Made by a program: the position numbers and the translations under genes. Source: a virus. From it: a stretch of 64,000 nucleotides of DNA. Where the stretch lies: positions 62,001-126,000 of IMG/VR virus record IMGVR_UViG_3300009093_000036. One strand, written 5' to 3'. Every line of letters starts with the position of its first letter. Position 1 is the stretch's first letter. A model generated the notes under the pieces. That model was not told the DNA's origin. It saw nothing but the letters and a program-made list of their open reading frames with translations, and searched no databases. Positions 56,080 through 63,743 of this stretch are shown one piece after another.

Positions 56080-57336
56080 TCACCACACCATGGGCGTAGG
56101 AGTCGATGTTGATGTGGTCGTCCCGTTACCGAGCTGACCCTGCGAGTTGTCGCCCCAGCACATGACCACCCCGCTCTGCATGATGCAGGCGTGGTTCGTC
56201 CCAAGCTGAAGGCTGGTGCCGACGATGTTGGTGTAGGTACCTACCGCATCCGAAGCCGGCAGCGCGTTGAAGGTGGCCGGACCCGTGAAGGTCGACGGCG
56301 TCGAGGACGAACAGTAGATGCCGGCTGCACGAGTCGATGTTCCAGTTGGGATCATCACGCACGCACGGCCACCATCGAGGTCGACCTCAGTGGCACCAGT
56401 CCACGTCGGCGTCAGCACCGGATGACCTGACGTCGAGCACGACACACTCGGGCCCGTCTCCGAGCTCGGCATCGTGCCCGTCCACGTGAAGCATGCGACG
56501 AGGTCGTTCGCATTGAAGGTGCCGGTCCGTGCGACATCCGTTGCGTCGTAGGTCGCCGCACCATCCACCGCCGTCCAGAAGTTCGCGTAGTCGGTCGTCA
56601 CCGGATGACCCGGAAGCGACGTGACAACACGATCCCAGCAGCGCAGGCCGCCGTTGATGTCGATGGCACAGTTCAGCGCCGGCATGCTGTCGACCGCCGT
56701 CGCCGGCGAGTAGGTGGGCGACATCAGGTTGAACGGGTGGACGAGACCATCCGTACGGCCGACGTACGCCTGGACACCCAGCACGGAGACGTCCGAACCG
56801 TAAGGTGTCGACCCCACGGCGTACGTGACACCACCGGCTGCGGTCCAGCACAGCACACGGCCATCGAGGCCGATGCCGCAGTTCCCTTCGAGATCGACGG
56901 CATCCGCAACGTGTGCGGGCGTCGAAGAGCCACCACCCCAGCACCACATCTGGTTCGTGCTCGTGAGCACACACGACGTGTTGCCATTCACGCCGAGCTC
57001 GACGATGGACCCAGGCCCCGAGGGACCCGCATCCGTCATCGCTGCGTCGACACCGGCGTCTGCGGTCGAAGTTCCGCTATCCGGAGTCCCGGTGGAAGCA
57101 TCAACCCCGCCGTCGTCAGTGACCATCGGGCCACTGTCGGAGGTCGCACTGTCGACCCCTGCGTCCGAGCCACTGTCTGCTTGTGCGTCGACTCCAGCAT
57201 CCGCCACCACCTCCATCTGAGCGTCGCCCATAGGCTGAGCATCCGCGGCCGGCACACCGCTGTCGGTGTACGCGACCGGCATGCCTTCCCCGCAGCCGAC
57301 GACCAGAACCATCATCAGCACGATGTTCAGCTTCAT
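56080..57336 (-). CDS. Lipoprotein with RCC1-type repeats
   Basis: This is a 418-residue protein. MKLNIVLMMVLVVGCGEG is a signal peptide with a lipobox ending VVGC. Residues 25-105 form a low-complexity linker of Asp, Ala, Ser, Gly (DAGVDAQADSGSDAGVDSA). The rest carries repeats of the RCC1 beta-propeller type, best seen as SCVLTSTNQMWCWGGG, GLDGRVLCW and ACIMQSGVVMCWGDNSQGQL. The linker/RCC1 style is common in myxobacterial surface proteins, so the gene may have come from the host. A phage copy at the cell surface could block other phages or change adhesion. Motif site 11 is just upstream. Confidence 0.85.
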   Translation of the reverse strand: MKLNIVLMMVLVVGCGEGMPVAYTDSGVPAADAQPMGDAQMEVVADAGVDAQADSGSDAGVDSATSDSGPMVTDDGGVDASTGTPDSGTSTADAGVDAAMTDAGPSGPGSIVELGVNGNTSCVLTSTNQMWCWGGGSSTPAHVADAVDLEGNCGIGLDGRVLCWTAAGGVTYAVGSTPYGSDVSVLGVQAYVGRTDGLVHPFNLMSPTYSPATAVDSMPALNCAIDINGGLRCWDRVVTSLPGHPVTTDYANFWTAVDGAATYDATDVARTGTFNANDLVACFTWTGTMPSSETGPSVSCSTSGHPVLTPTWTGATEVDLDGGRACVMIPTGTSTRAAGIYCSSSTPSTFTGPATFNALPASDAVGTYTNIVGTSLQLGTNHACIMQSGVVMCWGDNSQGQLGNGTTTSTSTPTPMVW

Positions 57337-57908: not shown

Positions 57909-58332
57909 CGATGATCTCCTCCAGCTTCGGGTACGCATACCCGCCGCCGTCCAGCTTCACCACCGGCCTCTTGGGCAGAAGTCCTTGATGGGGCTTCGAG
58001 GCAGGGTAGTCGTATCTCTCGACGATCCCTGCACCGAACCCGTCGATGATGACGTGCCTGCCCGGCTTCAGCAGAACCTTCGCCGCCACCTCCGGCTCCT
58101 TCGGCATGGGCAACGGAGGGTCCTCCGATCCCGCAGCGACGTGCACCAACGACGCCCAGTGCGCGATCGTGTAGCGCTCCTCCGGGGTGAGCTCGGAGAT
58201 CAAGTCGTCGATGACGTACTCCTCCGTGACGAGCGAGAGGAGATCGTGGAAGGCGGAGTCCTTCGTCAGCGTGTGTGGGTTGGGGACGACGTTCTTGGAG
58301 AGCTTCTCCAAGATCTTCTCTCCCCGACTCAC
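57898..58332 (-). CDS. Protein of unknown function
   Basis: This 144-residue protein is read from GTG 58332 in a GTGA overlap; ATG 58341 is another option. It contains FHDLLSLVTEEYVIDDL, EERYTIAHWASLVHVAAG and HVIIDGFGAGIVERYDY. The C-terminus carries VVKLDGGGYAYPKLEE. It is co-expressed with the (p)ppGpp hydrolase. The family is unknown. Confidence 0.55.
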   Translation of the reverse strand: MSRGEKILEKLSKNVVPNPHTLTKDSAFHDLLSLVTEEYVIDDLISELTPEERYTIAHWASLVHVAAGSEDPPLPMPKEPEVAAKVLLKPGRHVIIDGFGAGIVERYDYPASKPHQGLLPKRPVVKLDGGGYAYPKLEEIIGVE

Positions 58333-58907
58333 GGTGCCCATCCGTAGTGCTTCGCCGCCTTCTGGTAGGCTTCGTAGAAGCGGATGATGAGGGTTTGGAG
58401 GCTGCGCTCCTGCTCCTCGGTGAGACGAAGACGCTGGCGTGCATCCTTCCCCGCATCGACGACTGCCTCCGCCGAGTCGCAGTAGCCACGAACGGCACGC
58501 AACCCCCACTTCGGAGGGTTGTCGACCATGTCGTTCACGTTCGAGGTCTTGTCCGCGATCTTGATGAGGACACCCCCGATGTCCATCATCTTCATCATCA
58601 TGACCTGGTGAGCCGTCTTCTTCTCGTGGTTGCCATCTCGGCAGTCGAGAGGAAGCGTCAGGTCACGAGCGAGGTCGGCCGAGTAGCCGAACTTCTCGTG
58701 GAGCTCCTCGTACGTCGTCTCCGTGTCCTCCAGGGTGTCGTGGAGGATGGCCCCAACGAGAGTGAAAGGGTCGTCGACACCAGCAGCGACGAGACGCTGC
58801 GCGACGTCGAAGCAGTGTGTGACGTAGGGCTCGTTCTTCGGCCCCCGACCCGCCTGCTTGGCATGGCGACTGGCCGCGAACTTCGCGGCCTCGAAGATCT
58901 TGTTCAT
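58329..58907 (-). CDS. MESH1-like (p)ppGpp hydrolase (HD domain)
   Basis: This 192-residue protein is shaped like stand-alone RelA/SpoT hydrolase domains: NEPYVTHCFDVAQRLV, GAILHDTLEDTETTYEEL with the HD-E-D metal ligands, and GVLIKIADKTSNVNDM for the last helix. No synthetase domain follows, so it would only degrade (p)ppGpp and related alarmones. A phage enzyme of this kind could blunt the host starvation or toxin response. The start ATG 58907 overlaps the polymerase-like gene. Confidence 0.85.
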   Translation of the reverse strand: MNKIFEAAKFAASRHAKQAGRGPKNEPYVTHCFDVAQRLVAAGVDDPFTLVGAILHDTLEDTETTYEELHEKFGYSADLARDLTLPLDCRDGNHEKKTAHQVMMMKMMDIGGVLIKIADKTSNVNDMVDNPPKWGLRAVRGYCDSAEAVVDAGKDARQRLRLTEEQERSLQTLIIRFYEAYQKAAKHYGWAP

Positions 58908-58909
58908 GT

Positions 58910-60604
58910 TCACTCCTTCTTGTCGTGCGGCCCACGCATCATCGCGAACATCGCCATCTCCGCCTCGGAGGGCGTGCGAACTGGGCGATTCATGTCGAGG
59001 TCCTTGTGGACCTCACTGAGGATGGCGGGGCAGTGGATGTTGGCGATGTTCATCTTGCTTTCCGCATCGAGGCGCAGGAAGCGGATGGTGAGGCCCCAAG
59101 CTGTACGATCCAGCACGACCCCTCGTTCGTTCTGAGGACCCGGACCCTTGGAGATGGTGAAGCGGAAGCGCCCAGTGGTCGGGTACTCGATGGAGACGTA
59201 CTCGTAGACCGCCGTCAGGCCGTTGAAGCGCTTCGGAACATCGACGAGGGACATGACTCCAAGCAGCTTCACCCCCAAGCTGTTCTTCGAGATCCCAGGC
59301 TTCCGATCGGTGACACGCAGCGTCTGCGCCCAGCGAAGGCGGTGGACCTTGTACATCTGCGGGGAGGAGTAGAAAGCCTCCAGGGATTCCGAGTCCCTCT
59401 TCCACCACTTCAGCAAGGCCGCCTTGGTGCCTTCGAGCAACGAGCCCGCACAGTGCTCGCACTCCTTCGCATCTCTGCGAGACAGGATGGCAGGCTCGCT
59501 TCGATACCCTCCGTCGACACCCACACGAGTGACGTACGCCTTGCATCCGCAGTCCCGTCGGTTGGTGAGGCATTCACCGTGCCGGAGGGGGATCTCCTTT
59601 TCCAAGCCAGCGATGCGAGCTTCCGCGAGCCGCTGAGCCGAGAAGAGACCTTGAGTGACCTCTGCATCTGCCTTCGCATAGTTCGCCAGTCCTGCATCGA
59701 GGCCGCTGATGATCCTCAGACCTCCGTAGAGGGCAGAGAGCTCCGTCGACTTCGCAGCATCGCGCTGTTCTTTCGTGATCTGCGACGGAGGGACCTTGAA
59801 GATCTGTGACGCGATCTGCGTGTGGAAGTCGCGCTCTTCCGCCCATGTCCTGCTGTAGGGGAGGTCAGAAGAAACCACGGGCAGAGACCACACCTGCCGA
59901 AGCTCTTCGAGCTGCCTCGGGGAGAGACGGCGTTGTCTTACGGACCTCGGGTCCTGCCGCTTCCTCATCCACGGCTCGATCATGCTGGGGTCGATGCCCT
60001 TGGCCTTGGCGATGTTGATCGACTCCTCGCTGATGAGATCGAGCAAGATGAGGAGCTGCATCACATCCGTGGGCATCTTGCCAGCCACAGCAAGGCGCTC
60101 CAGATGCTGTTCGACCTGCTCCATGTGCGAGGCCCTCACCTTGTGGGGCTCCTTCCCCAGCATGTGGGACGTGAGCTCCCTGGAGTGTCCGTGCTGTCCG
60201 TAGTGCTGAAGAGCGACCTGAGCGATCACCCTCCACTCCAGCTCCGCGTAGTCCATCTTGAGGATGGGCTCCTGGGACTGACCCATCACCTCACGGCGAA
60301 ATGGGTCCGCGAACGGTATCGGGCTCCTCGGGTAGAGGGAGGCCATGAAGGAGGGGCGCTTGGCACTTTCTCGCCCCTCCTTCACCGGGTCCGGCTTCGG
60401 GGTGTTCGAGACGTGCGGCTCCTTCGAGGAAAGCCGCTCTGTCTTCACGTTCGCTTTGAACGCCGCCTCTTCCTGCTTCGCTTCCTCTTTCGGAGGTGCA
60501 GGTGGCGCAGCGTACGCCCGGCATGCCGGGTTCGTGCAGCCTTCGCTCGTGAATGCGAGCGTGATCTCGCACGGTGACGTGCAGAACATACACTTATGCT
60601 TCAT
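58910..60604 (-). CDS. Divergent family A DNA polymerase-like protein lacking motif C
   Basis: This 564-residue protein has a Cys-rich N-terminus (CMFCTSPC, CTNPAC). Motif A appears as KMDYAELEWRVIA (D118; normal DYSQIELR), and the fingers helix as QRDAAKSTELSALYGG (R281, K285, L289 in place of Phe, Y293-G294). The O1-type helix GSLLEGTKAALLKWW then follows. At the site of motif C (HDE) it reads MYKVHRLRW, so the catalytic Asp is absent. A Cys set (CLTNRRDCGC, CEHC) is inserted before it. No 3'-5' exonuclease domain exists. It may be inactive or a different nucleotide-binding protein. The start is ATG 60604. Confidence 0.7.
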   Translation of the reverse strand: MKHKCMFCTSPCEITLAFTSEGCTNPACRAYAAPPAPPKEEAKQEEAAFKANVKTERLSSKEPHVSNTPKPDPVKEGRESAKRPSFMASLYPRSPIPFADPFRREVMGQSQEPILKMDYAELEWRVIAQVALQHYGQHGHSRELTSHMLGKEPHKVRASHMEQVEQHLERLAVAGKMPTDVMQLLILLDLISEESINIAKAKGIDPSMIEPWMRKRQDPRSVRQRRLSPRQLEELRQVWSLPVVSSDLPYSRTWAEERDFHTQIASQIFKVPPSQITKEQRDAAKSTELSALYGGLRIISGLDAGLANYAKADAEVTQGLFSAQRLAEARIAGLEKEIPLRHGECLTNRRDCGCKAYVTRVGVDGGYRSEPAILSRRDAKECEHCAGSLLEGTKAALLKWWKRDSESLEAFYSSPQMYKVHRLRWAQTLRVTDRKPGISKNSLGVKLLGVMSLVDVPKRFNGLTAVYEYVSIEYPTTGRFRFTISKGPGPQNERGVVLDRTAWGLTIRFLRLDAESKMNIANIHCPAILSEVHKDLDMNRPVRTPSEAEMAMFAMMRGPHDKKE

Positions 60605-61071
60605 GTTCGTTTCCTTCGGTTCGGTGTAGTGAAGGCGATGCGTCTCGCCTCTTCCAACGTGTAGCGCTTCGTCAGCATCAACCTGGAGATTCTGCGGCGC
60701 AGAGCGCCATCATGAAGCCCCAGCTCCTCCGCCTTCTCATAGATGGTGAAGCGTTTTCCATCTAGCTCATAGATGAATCCGGACTTGTTTGAGTTCTGAA
60801 CCGACTTCGTCGACCAGCGACAGTTGCCTGGTTCGTACCCCTTGTCTGGATCGATGCGATCGAGCGAGTACTTCTTCGAGGGACGCTTGCCGACGTCATT
60901 CAAGAACGAAGCGAAGCCGCCCGGCCCCACCCAGTCGAAGTAGACGAGGATCCCGCGACCGCCGTAGTCCGGGTAGCTCTTGTGCTTCGGGTTCGTGCAC
61001 CGCTGAATCATCATCCTCCACGACGTGTACGTCGGGGAGGACTTCCTCTTGCGTCGATGCCCGTGCGTCAT
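60601..61071 (-). CDS. HNH endonuclease of phage type
   Basis: This is a 156-residue protein. TYTSWRMMIQRCTNPKHKS, SYPDYGGRGILVYFDW, then SLDRIDPDKGYEPGNCRWST is the HNH layout of phage homing-type proteins (Y-x-S-W-x-x-M, G-G-R-G-I, S-L-D-R-I-D, N-C-R-W). The C-terminal 50 residues (KRFTIYEKAEELGLHDGALR) form a helix-turn-helix-like region. It is probably a DNA nuclease, and its place beside replication genes would fit homing. The start ATG 61071 overlaps the upstream stop as ATGA. Confidence 0.85.
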   Translation of the reverse strand: MTHGHRRKRKSSPTYTSWRMMIQRCTNPKHKSYPDYGGRGILVYFDWVGPGGFASFLNDVGKRPSKKYSLDRIDPDKGYEPGNCRWSTKSVQNSNKSGFIYELDGKRFTIYEKAEELGLHDGALRRRISRLMLTKRYTLEEARRIAFTTPNRRKRT

Positions 61072-61280
61072 CGAAGGATGTCGAGGAGCTTGCCCCACAA
61101 GATCTTCCCCAGACCGCCCCACGGCTGATGACAGCCAGGGGCATGGTGATCGAGTGGGATGAGCCGCTGACATCCTCCGCAGGTTTCCAGGGGCTCCCCC
61201 TGCGGGGTCTCACCCCAGCGATAGCAGAAGTCGATGTAGCGCTGGCCGTCTTCAGGCGTGAGCAGTCCGCGGTCGTCCAT
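61068..61280 (-). CDS. Small zinc-binding protein
   Basis: This 70-residue protein has CGGCQRLIPLDHHAPGCH, a Cys/His set for one zinc. It begins MDDRGLLTPEDGQRYID and ends GGLGKILWGKLLDIL. It overlaps the helicase gene upstream by 29 bases. The partner is unknown. Confidence 0.55.
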   Translation of the reverse strand: MDDRGLLTPEDGQRYIDFCYRWGETPQGEPLETCGGCQRLIPLDHHAPGCHQPWGGLGKILWGKLLDILR

Positions 61281-62493
61281 CTTCGCGTTCCTTCTTCATG
61301 TCGATGATCCGGTTGGGAAGAGTCGTGAAGCGTTCACGAGGCTTGTTCTGTGCGAGTGCGACTCCGATCCCTTCCTCGTTGCCGATGAGAGTGACACCAC
61401 GCTTGGCACGCGTCACCGCCGTGTAGAGGAGCTGCCGCGACCACATGCGGATGTGCATGCCGTGACAGATGACACCGACGCTCTCCCACTCCGAGCCCTG
61501 CGCCTTGTGCACAGTCAACGCATACGCAAGTCGAAGCTGATGCATCGCGACGAGCTGTGGGTACTCCACGAACTTCCCCGGGTACTTCACGACGACCTTG
61601 CCATCCGCGATCTTGTCGATGATGCCGAGCTCTCCGTTGAAGACATTCAGGACGTAGTTGTTCTGGACGTGGATGACCTTGTCTCCCACACCTGCGAACT
61701 GCTGCATCGAAGCACGCGGCACTGCAAGCTCGATGTGCTCGCCGTCGAGTCGGTTCGGGTTCAGCTCGGAAGCGATCTCGTGGTTCAGCACCTCCGTGCC
61801 CAAGTCCCCGACGTTCATCGGAGTCAAGAGCTGGAAGCGTCCCAGGAAGAAGTTGATCTTCTGGTGGACCAACAACTGCTTCGCGAGGTCGATGACGTCG
61901 TACGCCGAGTCCATCTCGAACGCCTCGAAGTCGTCCCTCTTCGTCGTGTCGAACATCTGACCGGCGAGAATCTTCGGAGCATTCGCACAGATCCACGACT
62001 CCGCCGCGCTGCGGTGAAGCGTCTTCAGGCGTACGACGGGGACCTCACCCGAGTCGATGAGGTCTCGAAGTACGCTGCCGGCGCCGACGCTTGGGAGCTG
62101 ATCGGCGTCGCCGATGAGACGGATGCGAGCCCCCTTCTTCATGACGACCAGGAGGTGGTAGAGCATCTGCGCATCCACCATCGAGGCCTCATCCGCGATG
62201 TAGACGTCGTGCGGCAACTGGTCGGTGCCGTACTGGTCTCCGTTAAAGCCGGTGAGACGGTGGATCGTGGACGCATCCATGCCCACCACCTCCGTCATTC
62301 GCTTCGCTGCCTTGCCGGTCGGAGCGACCAAGACGACGTCCAGTCCCATCAGGCGCGTGTCGCGCAGTGCCTTCTTCAACGTCGTCGTCTTGCCGGTGCC
62401 AGGACCGCCGGTGATGATGCCGATCGGCTCCTTCGAGCAGATCAGGTCGATCGCGCGTTCCTGGTCTTCGTCACGATCCTGCTGCTGTTCCAT
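61252..62493 (-). CDS. RecD2-like helicase, C-terminal (motor) half
   Basis: This is a 413-residue protein. It holds SF1 helicase motifs in order: Walker A GGPGTGKTT (about residues 29-37), YIADEASM (motif II), LIGDADQLPSVGAG (motif III), LTVHKAQGSEW (motif V) and LLYTAVTRAKRG (motif VI). They match RecD2/TraA-type 5'-3' helicases. RecD2 normally has OB and HhH domains at the N-terminus; here those lie in the separate gene upstream (62471-63502), overlapping by 23 bases. The start ATG 62493 has GAGG. It probably acts in DNA repair or replication. Confidence 0.9.
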   Translation of the reverse strand: MEQQQDRDEDQERAIDLICSKEPIGIITGGPGTGKTTTLKKALRDTRLMGLDVVLVAPTGKAAKRMTEVVGMDASTIHRLTGFNGDQYGTDQLPHDVYIADEASMVDAQMLYHLLVVMKKGARIRLIGDADQLPSVGAGSVLRDLIDSGEVPVVRLKTLHRSAAESWICANAPKILAGQMFDTTKRDDFEAFEMDSAYDVIDLAKQLLVHQKINFFLGRFQLLTPMNVGDLGTEVLNHEIASELNPNRLDGEHIELAVPRASMQQFAGVGDKVIHVQNNYVLNVFNGELGIIDKIADGKVVVKYPGKFVEYPQLVAMHQLRLAYALTVHKAQGSEWESVGVICHGMHIRMWSRQLLYTAVTRAKRGVTLIGNEEGIGVALAQNKPRERFTTLPNRIIDMKKEREDGRPRTAHA

Positions 62494-63502
62494 CGTCGTC
62501 CTCGATGTCTTCGAGCTCGGGCGGCAGCGTCTGCACGCGACCAGTCACCACGAACTCCGAGATGCCTGCTTCGTAGCGGGCGTAAGGGGTGAGCTGCACC
62601 ATCGTCGGCGAACCGTAGAGGGTGACGAACTCGGGGATGAGGGCATCGAAGTTGCTCATCAACTTCGTCGCACTGAACTCGGGGTACGTCTCCTCCACCA
62701 AGTCGATGAAGTCGGAGTAGTACATCGCCGTGTGCCCCTCCTCCGTGCACAGGCGTAGTTCGTGGAGGCAGACCGCCTTGACGCGTCGGTCGTCCACCTT
62801 CTTGTTCTCGGGCTGCGCGAGGTAGACCTTGTCGATCTTCGTGAAGGGGACGTTGTCGAGGTAGTAGAACACGACGTACGGGTCGGTTCGCAGCTCCTCC
62901 ACTGCACGAGCGCCTCGGGCCACGAAGAGGGCGTGAGCCTCCTTCGTGTCGAGACCCATCTTCATCAGGCTGTCCACCGAGTTCTTGCGCTGGACGAAGA
63001 TCCGGATGTCGATGAACTCAGCGCTCAGCCCATGCTTGGCGAACACCTGCTGGGCGCCGGCTTGATCCGAGACGATCAAGTTCCACAACCTGATCAACTC
63101 GAAGTCACCAGGGCCTGTGAGAGGAGCAAGGGTACCTGCCCCCTTCATCTGTCCGAGCGTTGCGAAGTTCTCGTACCAGTCGTCGACCAGCGCGTTCGCG
63201 TTCTTCCACGGCGCCTGGAAGTGTCGCTGCATCCATTCGAGGAAAGCCTTCCGTGTCGCCGGGAACGTTGTAACAACACGCGATGCCCGCACCTGCATGC
63301 CGTGCGTCGGATGTTCTTGCTCGTAGCCAGAGACCTCGATGTAGTCGCCGGCACGGATGCCTTCGCACACACCGACGACCTTCTGACGGGCGCCATCCTT
63401 GTCCATGAGGGTGATGACGCCCATGCCCTCAGCGCTGCCGCGGAACCGCAGTACGTCGCGGACGACGCCGTAGAGCTCGACCTCAGTCCTTGCCGACTTC
63501 AT
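62471..63502 (-). CDS. RecD2-like helicase, N-terminal (OB/HhH) half
   Basis: This 343-residue protein begins RTEVELYGVVRDVLRFRGS, then VVGVCEGIRAGDYIEVSG and YEQEHPTHGMQVRASRV, the same order as the RecD2 N-terminal OB domain (where the usual phrase ends W-x-x-H-P-K-Y-G-x-Q-F). LSAEFIDIRIF and MGLDTKEAHALFVARG follow where HhH-type repeats lie. The last 60 residues include TPYARYEAGISEFVVTG. It must pair with the motor half downstream. The start ATG 63502 has GAGGAC. Confidence 0.75.
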   Translation of the reverse strand: MKSARTEVELYGVVRDVLRFRGSAEGMGVITLMDKDGARQKVVGVCEGIRAGDYIEVSGYEQEHPTHGMQVRASRVVTTFPATRKAFLEWMQRHFQAPWKNANALVDDWYENFATLGQMKGAGTLAPLTGPGDFELIRLWNLIVSDQAGAQQVFAKHGLSAEFIDIRIFVQRKNSVDSLMKMGLDTKEAHALFVARGARAVEELRTDPYVVFYYLDNVPFTKIDKVYLAQPENKKVDDRRVKAVCLHELRLCTEEGHTAMYYSDFIDLVEETYPEFSATKLMSNFDALIPEFVTLYGSPTMVQLTPYARYEAGISEFVVTGRVQTLPPELEDIEDDDGTAAGS

Positions 63503-63503
63503 G

Positions 63504-63743
63504 TCAGTCCTCTTCTTCTTCGCAGAGCCCGCGCTTGGCGCCGATCCACTTCGAGATGATGAGCTTGCCCTTGTCACCGCGCTTCCAGACCTCCGAGTCC
63601 GCATGGATCTGCGACTGCGGGATCCAGTGCTCCGCCCCATCGATGACGACGAGGATGGCTTGGGTCGTCGAACGAATGCACTCCGCCACCGGGACCACGA
63701 TGTTCTTGTCGTCGTAGTCCCGGTACTGCTTCTTCGGAGGCAT
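63504..63743 (-). CDS. Small protein of unknown function
   Basis: This 79-residue protein begins PPKKQYRDYDDKNIVV and has TQAILVVIDGAEHWIPQSQI, then KLIISKWIGAKRGLCEEEED. The last part is acidic. The start is ATG 63743, overlapping the upstream stop as TGATG. It directly precedes the RecD2 halves. Confidence 0.5.
   Translation of the reverse strand: MPPKKQYRDYDDKNIVVPVAECIRSTTQAILVVIDGAEHWIPQSQIHADSEVWKRGDKGKLIISKWIGAKRGLCEEEED

Follow-up and report, generated by a model that had tools for sequence, protein, structure and literature searches.

P0001, a 564-residue protein encoded in a phage genome, may be a non-catalytic, nucleotide- or nucleic-acid-binding accessory protein built from segments of family A DNA polymerase (PolA), a reading that we put forward tentatively and whose functional side we infer. 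Of PolA it retains, in order, a TGRLSS-like segment, motif A and the hairpin formed by the N and O helices of the fingers. The gene lies in the 64,000-nucleotide window that we analysed, which corresponds to bases 62001-126000 of virus record G000 (195,355 bases, phage). A first-pass annotation of this DNA had described a PolA-like protein without a motif C aspartate; the TGRLSS-like segment (residues 53-72), the N-terminal Cys cluster of P0001 and the canonical PolA found elsewhere in the record were not part of it.

P0001 is encoded by a single open frame in an operon-like setting

The gene overlaps both of its neighbours, its start with the stop of the upstream gene and its stop with the next start:

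58910..60604, (-): P0001, an open reading frame of 564 codons (564 amino acids) starting MKHKC
60601..61173, (-): upstream neighbour, HNH/AP2-homing-endonuclease-like by eye, without a Pfam match; its stop overlaps the P0001 start
61252..62493, (-): RecD2-like helicase core (ATPase core), upstream in the operon; AAA_30, UvrD_C_2 and SH3_13
62471-63640: RecD2-like helicase part with OB and HHH domains, upstream
58329..58913, (-): HD-domain protein, downstream in the operon; HD_4, E=1.5e-12

RecD2 seems to be split over two overlapping genes, the OB/HHH part at 62471-63640 and the helicase core at 61252-62493. At 56080-57336 of the window, adjoining the PolA-motif locus, a gene conserved across the lineage encodes a lipoprotein-like product whose repeats are rich in Asp, Ala and Gly and whose C terminus is RCC1-like.

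The high GC content makes long spurious frames common in the window, and P0001 might on that account have been an artefact, produced from a normal polA by a frameshift or by misassembly. In each of the seven 80-codon blocks, codon log-odds nevertheless favoured the P0001 frame, with margins of +15 to +34 bits and the other frames near or below zero, and GC3 stayed between 0.64 and 0.88 along the full length. Read in its other frames, the C-terminal half gave no PolA match. With one coding frame by codon usage and no polymerase match in the others, a frameshift, which the first-pass annotation had named as a possible cause of an altered C terminus, is excluded as far as sequence allows, and the annotated open frame is confirmed as real. 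An independent syntenic homologue in another metagenome contig also speaks against an artefact, to which we attach a negligible probability.

Three segments resemble family A polymerase

The Pfam family DNA_pol_A (PF00476) matched P0001 above its cut-off (E=2.7e-10), with the best stretch at residues 244-295. A profile built from 18 complete PolA proteins, run as a 6-sequence search, gave two domains, one at residues 53-161, which takes in KTERLSSKEPHVSN and motif A (ILKMDYAELEWRVIA), and one at residues 258-295, the fingers hairpin. The corresponding features are:

60389..60448, (-): TGRLSS..PNLQN-like PolA segment, residues 53-72 (VKTERLSSKEPHVSNTPKPD); PolA profile domain 1, i-E 2.2e-6 (6-sequence search); 0 matches of its regular expression in simulations
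60230..60253, (-): motif A, D118-Y-A-E-L-E-W-R125, by PolA profile; Asp replaced by Thr in the homologue P0002
59855..60217, (-): insert of about 114 residues from motif A to the fingers hairpin, without a family match
59720..59845, (-): fingers N/O-helix hairpin, residues 254-295, by Pfam, AF2 and Foldseek

Motif A is therefore present as first annotated, and so is the fingers helix, which reads R281-x3-K285-x3-L289-x3-Y293-G294 and keeps the Arg, Lys and Tyr-Gly of the O helix with Leu in place of Phe. The insert, first put at about 120 residues, comes to about 114 because D118 and R281 are 163 residues apart as against 49 in Taq. By position, and with the numbering checked, H261, R281, K285 and Y293 of P0001 equal Taq H639, R659, K663 and Y671. 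In Taq, His639, Arg659 and Lys663 contact the phosphates of the incoming nucleotide.

Structure prediction, proposed earlier as a check, succeeded for the hairpin and failed for the whole protein. AF2 run on a 64-residue hairpin piece alone (single sequence) gave two helices with pLDDT 83-90, and the best PDB matches of this model in Foldseek were all fingers of Pol I, Taq or Bst, mostly with an rmsd of 0.7-1.1 A over about 36 residues and a probability of about 1.0; their E-values were weak (0.2 and up) because the piece is short. The whole-protein model from a two-row alignment had a mean pLDDT of 34, was usable only for residues 261-285 and was too poor to judge the fold. A MAFFT alignment of P0001 with canonical PolA misplaced the motifs and was left unused.

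Motif C is undetectable and the termini are new

Outside the TGR segment, motif A and the hairpin, profiles gave no match in P0001 to the exonuclease, the thumb, motif C or the second half of the palm, which bears out the earlier statement that an exonuclease domain is absent. Residues 296-564 had no Pfam match, and motif C was not detectable in any frame of the P0001 region. Three features describe the remaining parts:

60521..60592, (-): N-terminal zinc-ribbon-like Cys cluster C5-x2-C8...C23-x4-C28, by direct reading; C8, C23 and C28 align to Cys in P0002
59165..59362, (-): novel C-terminal domain, residues 415-480, containing VHR; conserved with P0002 at 30% identity, no Pfam match
59000..59014, (-): E531-V-H-K-D535 (V532-H-K-D-L), where motif C is placed best, although without significance; profile domain E=0.75, no acid there in P0002

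The Cys cluster is a putative metal binder. The first-pass annotation had placed VHR at the position expected for HDE; this tripeptide (residues 420-422) lies within the new C-terminal domain and aligns to S-N-A in P0002, and we rejected it as a remnant of motif C. The motif C Asp (HDE) of active family A polymerases was likewise not found, the best placement reading HKD.

The locus varies among related phages

G002 (polA 76%), another metagenome contig, holds the syntenic homologue P0002 (652 residues), which retains the hairpin (EEQRRAAKTESFAKIYG) including its His, Arg, Lys and Tyr. Its motif A reads RTFSSLELRVL, so that the metal-binding Asp, D118 in P0001, is Thr; the C-terminal domains of the two proteins align with 30% identity. 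The C-terminal end of P0002 (L153 / L020:2434-4392) is a DnaJ-like Cys cluster (PF00684, E=1e-4, short of the cut-off) with a weak PADLOC match to PDC-M01B. Residues 305-323 of P0002 (PDYAAADAQFVMHVAKKRI) resemble an out-of-order PolA exonuclease motif III, but the score is insignificant (E=0.05 among six sequences) and we claim no such motif.

In G001, whose canonical polA is 96% identical at the protein level, the P0001 gene has shrunk to a 44-residue open reading frame. Exactly 1,560 bp (520 codons, in frame) are missing between two 5-bp GCACG repeats:

60533..60537, (-): left GCACG copy bounding the G001 deletion
58973..58977, (-): right GCACG copy bounding the G001 deletion

A target-site duplication could look like this, but deletion is the likelier direction because the zinc-ribbon-like cluster is complete in the long form only. 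Since a close relative lost this much of it, the P0001 gene appears dispensable. Further relatives were collected through canonical PolA; a search of these with profile A1 found no further member of the P0001/P0002 family, a pattern search of genome contigs found no relative, and the family has two known full-length members, P0001 and P0002.

We also read nine genomes of the lineage piecewise (1.46 Mb) and compared strict patterns with 12 simulated sets. The full N/O hairpin pattern matched twice, in P0001 and P0002; the TGR-segment pattern matched 12 times and the motif A pattern 13 times, 8 of each in canonical PolA, and none of the three matched in the simulated sets. Beyond canonical PolA, the matches include P0001, P0003 of G002 (TGRLQSKEPNLSNTPKPD), a 275-residue open reading frame of G013 (Pfam 48.6 bits), others of G008 and G006, a mini-ORF of about 87 residues in G004 and the tail of an acyl-carrier-protein-like frame in G008. 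The open reading frames of G006, G008 and G013 have the RecD2-like helicase on one side and the lipoprotein gene on the other, as P0001 does, and encode proteins that look unrelated, yet carry PolA motif A.

The lineage encodes several other small proteins of note. A 120-residue acyl carrier protein frame at about 85965-86328 of G008:C1 (L069:2966-3328; PP-binding E=1.1e-8) has a PolA-like tail, HGVVTGRMSSSGPNYNNMPREDKH, and G010 matches the same PolA segment. Proteins of a second family (family II) have a SAP-like N terminus (G000:C1:51180-51932, G001:C1:15061-15795 and G002:C1:181552-182487), with a PolA segment in the middle region in G002, G006 and G013 and none in G000 and G001. Two small open reading frames, at G001:C1:168220-168462 and G008:C1:16771-17130, the latter directly downstream of the G008 PolA-motif frame, show a weak similarity, not seen with Pfam, to part of the helicase core (helix, strand, T-T-x-Q) of the phage's own DnaB-like protein (G000:C1:3029-4561).

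Similar hairpins occur as mini-proteins in unrelated phages

In a 60-residue protein of the Pectobacterium phages PPWS2 and CX5, a motif A-like start is fused to the hairpin; about 20 Acinetobacter phage records, mostly Saclayvirus, encode hairpin proteins of 55-69 residues; and the Maribacter phages Molly and Colly encode a 103-residue protein made of the hairpin and a Cys cluster. The hairpin is roughly the whole of these mini-proteins, to which Molly gp187 adds the Cys cluster, whereas P0001 has 564 residues. An alignment of the hairpin modules shows invariant D, A, F, T, Q, R, K and Y, and His is present in all but Molly. P0001 matches the mini-protein pattern D-x-H..A..[MI]F..[VI]T..QR...K.......Y, which had 0 matches in simulations. 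The Saclayvirus copies are under purifying selection, with dN/dS of about 0.07-0.15 for the closer, unsaturated pairs.

A pattern scan of stretches fetched around the mini-proteins found no motif C and no other PolA part of a split gene. Two further candidates were discarded, a match in Kosakonia Kc259 that lies in a full-length gene and one in phage BvP that has no stand-alone coding sequence. Among PHROG families, phrog_38792 (62 residues, unknown function), phrog_30466 (122 residues) and phrog_6982 match the N/O hairpin of P0001, P0002 or the mini-proteins; phrog_30466 and phrog_6982 may be parts of split polymerases. A literature search, thin on subscription papers and so weak evidence of novelty, found no description of the hairpin mini-proteins.

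P0001 is unlikely to be the polymerase of this phage

A search of the rest of the genome for a second polymerase, suggested in the first-pass annotation, was positive: G000 also encodes a complete family A polymerase of 666 residues (P0004) with an intact motif C, VHDEL. P0004 and its relatives share a superfamily and a genome with P0001 but are complete enzymes, with exonuclease, VHDEL and an N/O linker unlike that of P0001. The PolA segments of P0001 are closer to bacterial Pol I than to the phage's own PolA, and the canonical PolA of the lineage is, judged on this comparison, no recent source of them.

P0001 resembles Pol I (family A, PF00476) in the TGR segment, motif A (DY.xLExR), the O helix (RxxxKxxxLxxxYG) and the N/O hairpin fold; it differs in having no exonuclease, thumb or motif C, in the change of Phe to Leu, in the 114-residue insert, in its Cys clusters and in an unrelated C-terminal domain. 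The nearest published cases are divPolA1 and divPolA2 of Caudoviricetes, second divergent PolAs beside the regular DNA polymerase, which have a lost or inactive exonuclease and a truncated or replaced thumb, keep the catalytic residues of the palm and are described as probably active (PMC11348598). P0001 is like them an additional PolA-type protein beside a regular DNA polymerase, and unlike them it has an undetectable motif C and a homologue, P0002, that has lost motif A. Because motif C is undetectable and P0002 also lacks the motif A Asp, polymerization by P0001 is very unlikely. Neither the thumb nor half of the palm can be detected, so that binding by way of the fingers hairpin would be likelier than a Pol-I-like hold on a primer-template.

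Alternative explanations

Of the two readings offered in the first-pass annotation, a pseudo-polymerase is supported by the retained PolA segments, the undetectable motif C, the loss of the motif A Asp in P0002 and the separate intact PolA. The other, an unrecognized branch with a relocated catalytic acid, gained no support: the C-terminal half lacks a conserved acid, and even motif A varies within the family. An active family A polymerase whose motif C acid is relocated or substituted, perhaps a primase or terminal transferase, could point to the motif A Asp, the O-helix Arg, Lys and Tyr and the TGR segment of P0001, and to VHKD (532-535), where an Asp stands one position on. That placement is insignificant, however, and P0002 has neither an acid there nor the motif A Asp; with no detectable thumb, only half a palm at most and a normal PolA in the phage, we regard activity of this kind as highly improbable.

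P0001 might instead be what is left of a second polA gene, of bacterial type, that no longer functions and is decaying and being lost from these genomes. The deletion between short repeats in G001, the missing motif A Asp in P0002, the affinity of the segments to bacterial Pol I and the different PolA subsets retained by family II proteins at the same locus all favour decay, but 564 codons are still open with a codon bias like that of neighbouring genes, the conserved C-terminal domain is unrelated to PolA, and the hairpin mini-proteins elsewhere are under purifying selection; we consider decay unlikely, though not strongly so. Slightly less probable to us is mimicry, in which P0001 would either serve as a decoy, drawing off a defence system that recognizes phage PolA, or antagonize host Pol I. 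PolA pieces do recur in differing small phage proteins (family II, the acyl-carrier-protein tail, the 87-residue frame), the stand-alone hairpins sit among small hypothetical genes, and PPWS2 ORF5 is similar to bacterial Pol I. Against it, the residues conserved in the hairpin belong, in Pol I, to the face that binds the nucleotide within the cleft and not to an outer surface, and no defence partner is known; PADLOC gave no match to P0001.

Under the accessory-protein reading that we prefer, P0001 is a protein assembled from PolA segments that has gained a Cys-rich N terminus and a new C-terminal domain; its gene belongs to the RecD2-like helicase operon, and the phage replicates with its separate intact PolA. 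The hairpin would be the binding module, its His/Arg/Lys face gripping the phosphates of a nucleotide or nucleic acid, and P0001 would thereby be an accessory or regulatory nucleotide- or DNA-binding factor, not a polymerase. That a hairpin survives repeatedly together with the Arg and Lys that contact phosphates, and in every case but one with the His too, while catalytic acids are lost argues for binding without catalysis. Against this reading count the small family, with its two known full-length members, and the loss of the gene in G001. The 40-residue hairpin alone may bind nucleotides weakly. In P0001 itself the hairpin residues could persist as remnants, the dN/dS values coming from Saclayvirus relatives only.

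Implications

P0001 is very probably inactive, unlike the second phage PolAs described as probably active (PMC11348598). It is tied to a set of tiny hairpin proteins without an assigned role, whose presence in unrelated phages suggests that phages reuse polymerase pieces for another job. Should the hairpin on its own bind nucleotides or DNA, it would be a smaller reuse of a polymerase part than any other known to us. It is possible, although we hold this broader view with considerable doubt, that phages have time and again cut short modules (TGR segment, motif A, fingers hairpin) out of family A polymerase for use as small non-catalytic mimics, alone or joined to unrelated domains, that would serve as nucleotide-binding regulators or decoys, with P0001 a large composite member. 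Were P0001 a decoy, this would imply a host system that reads polymerase structure.
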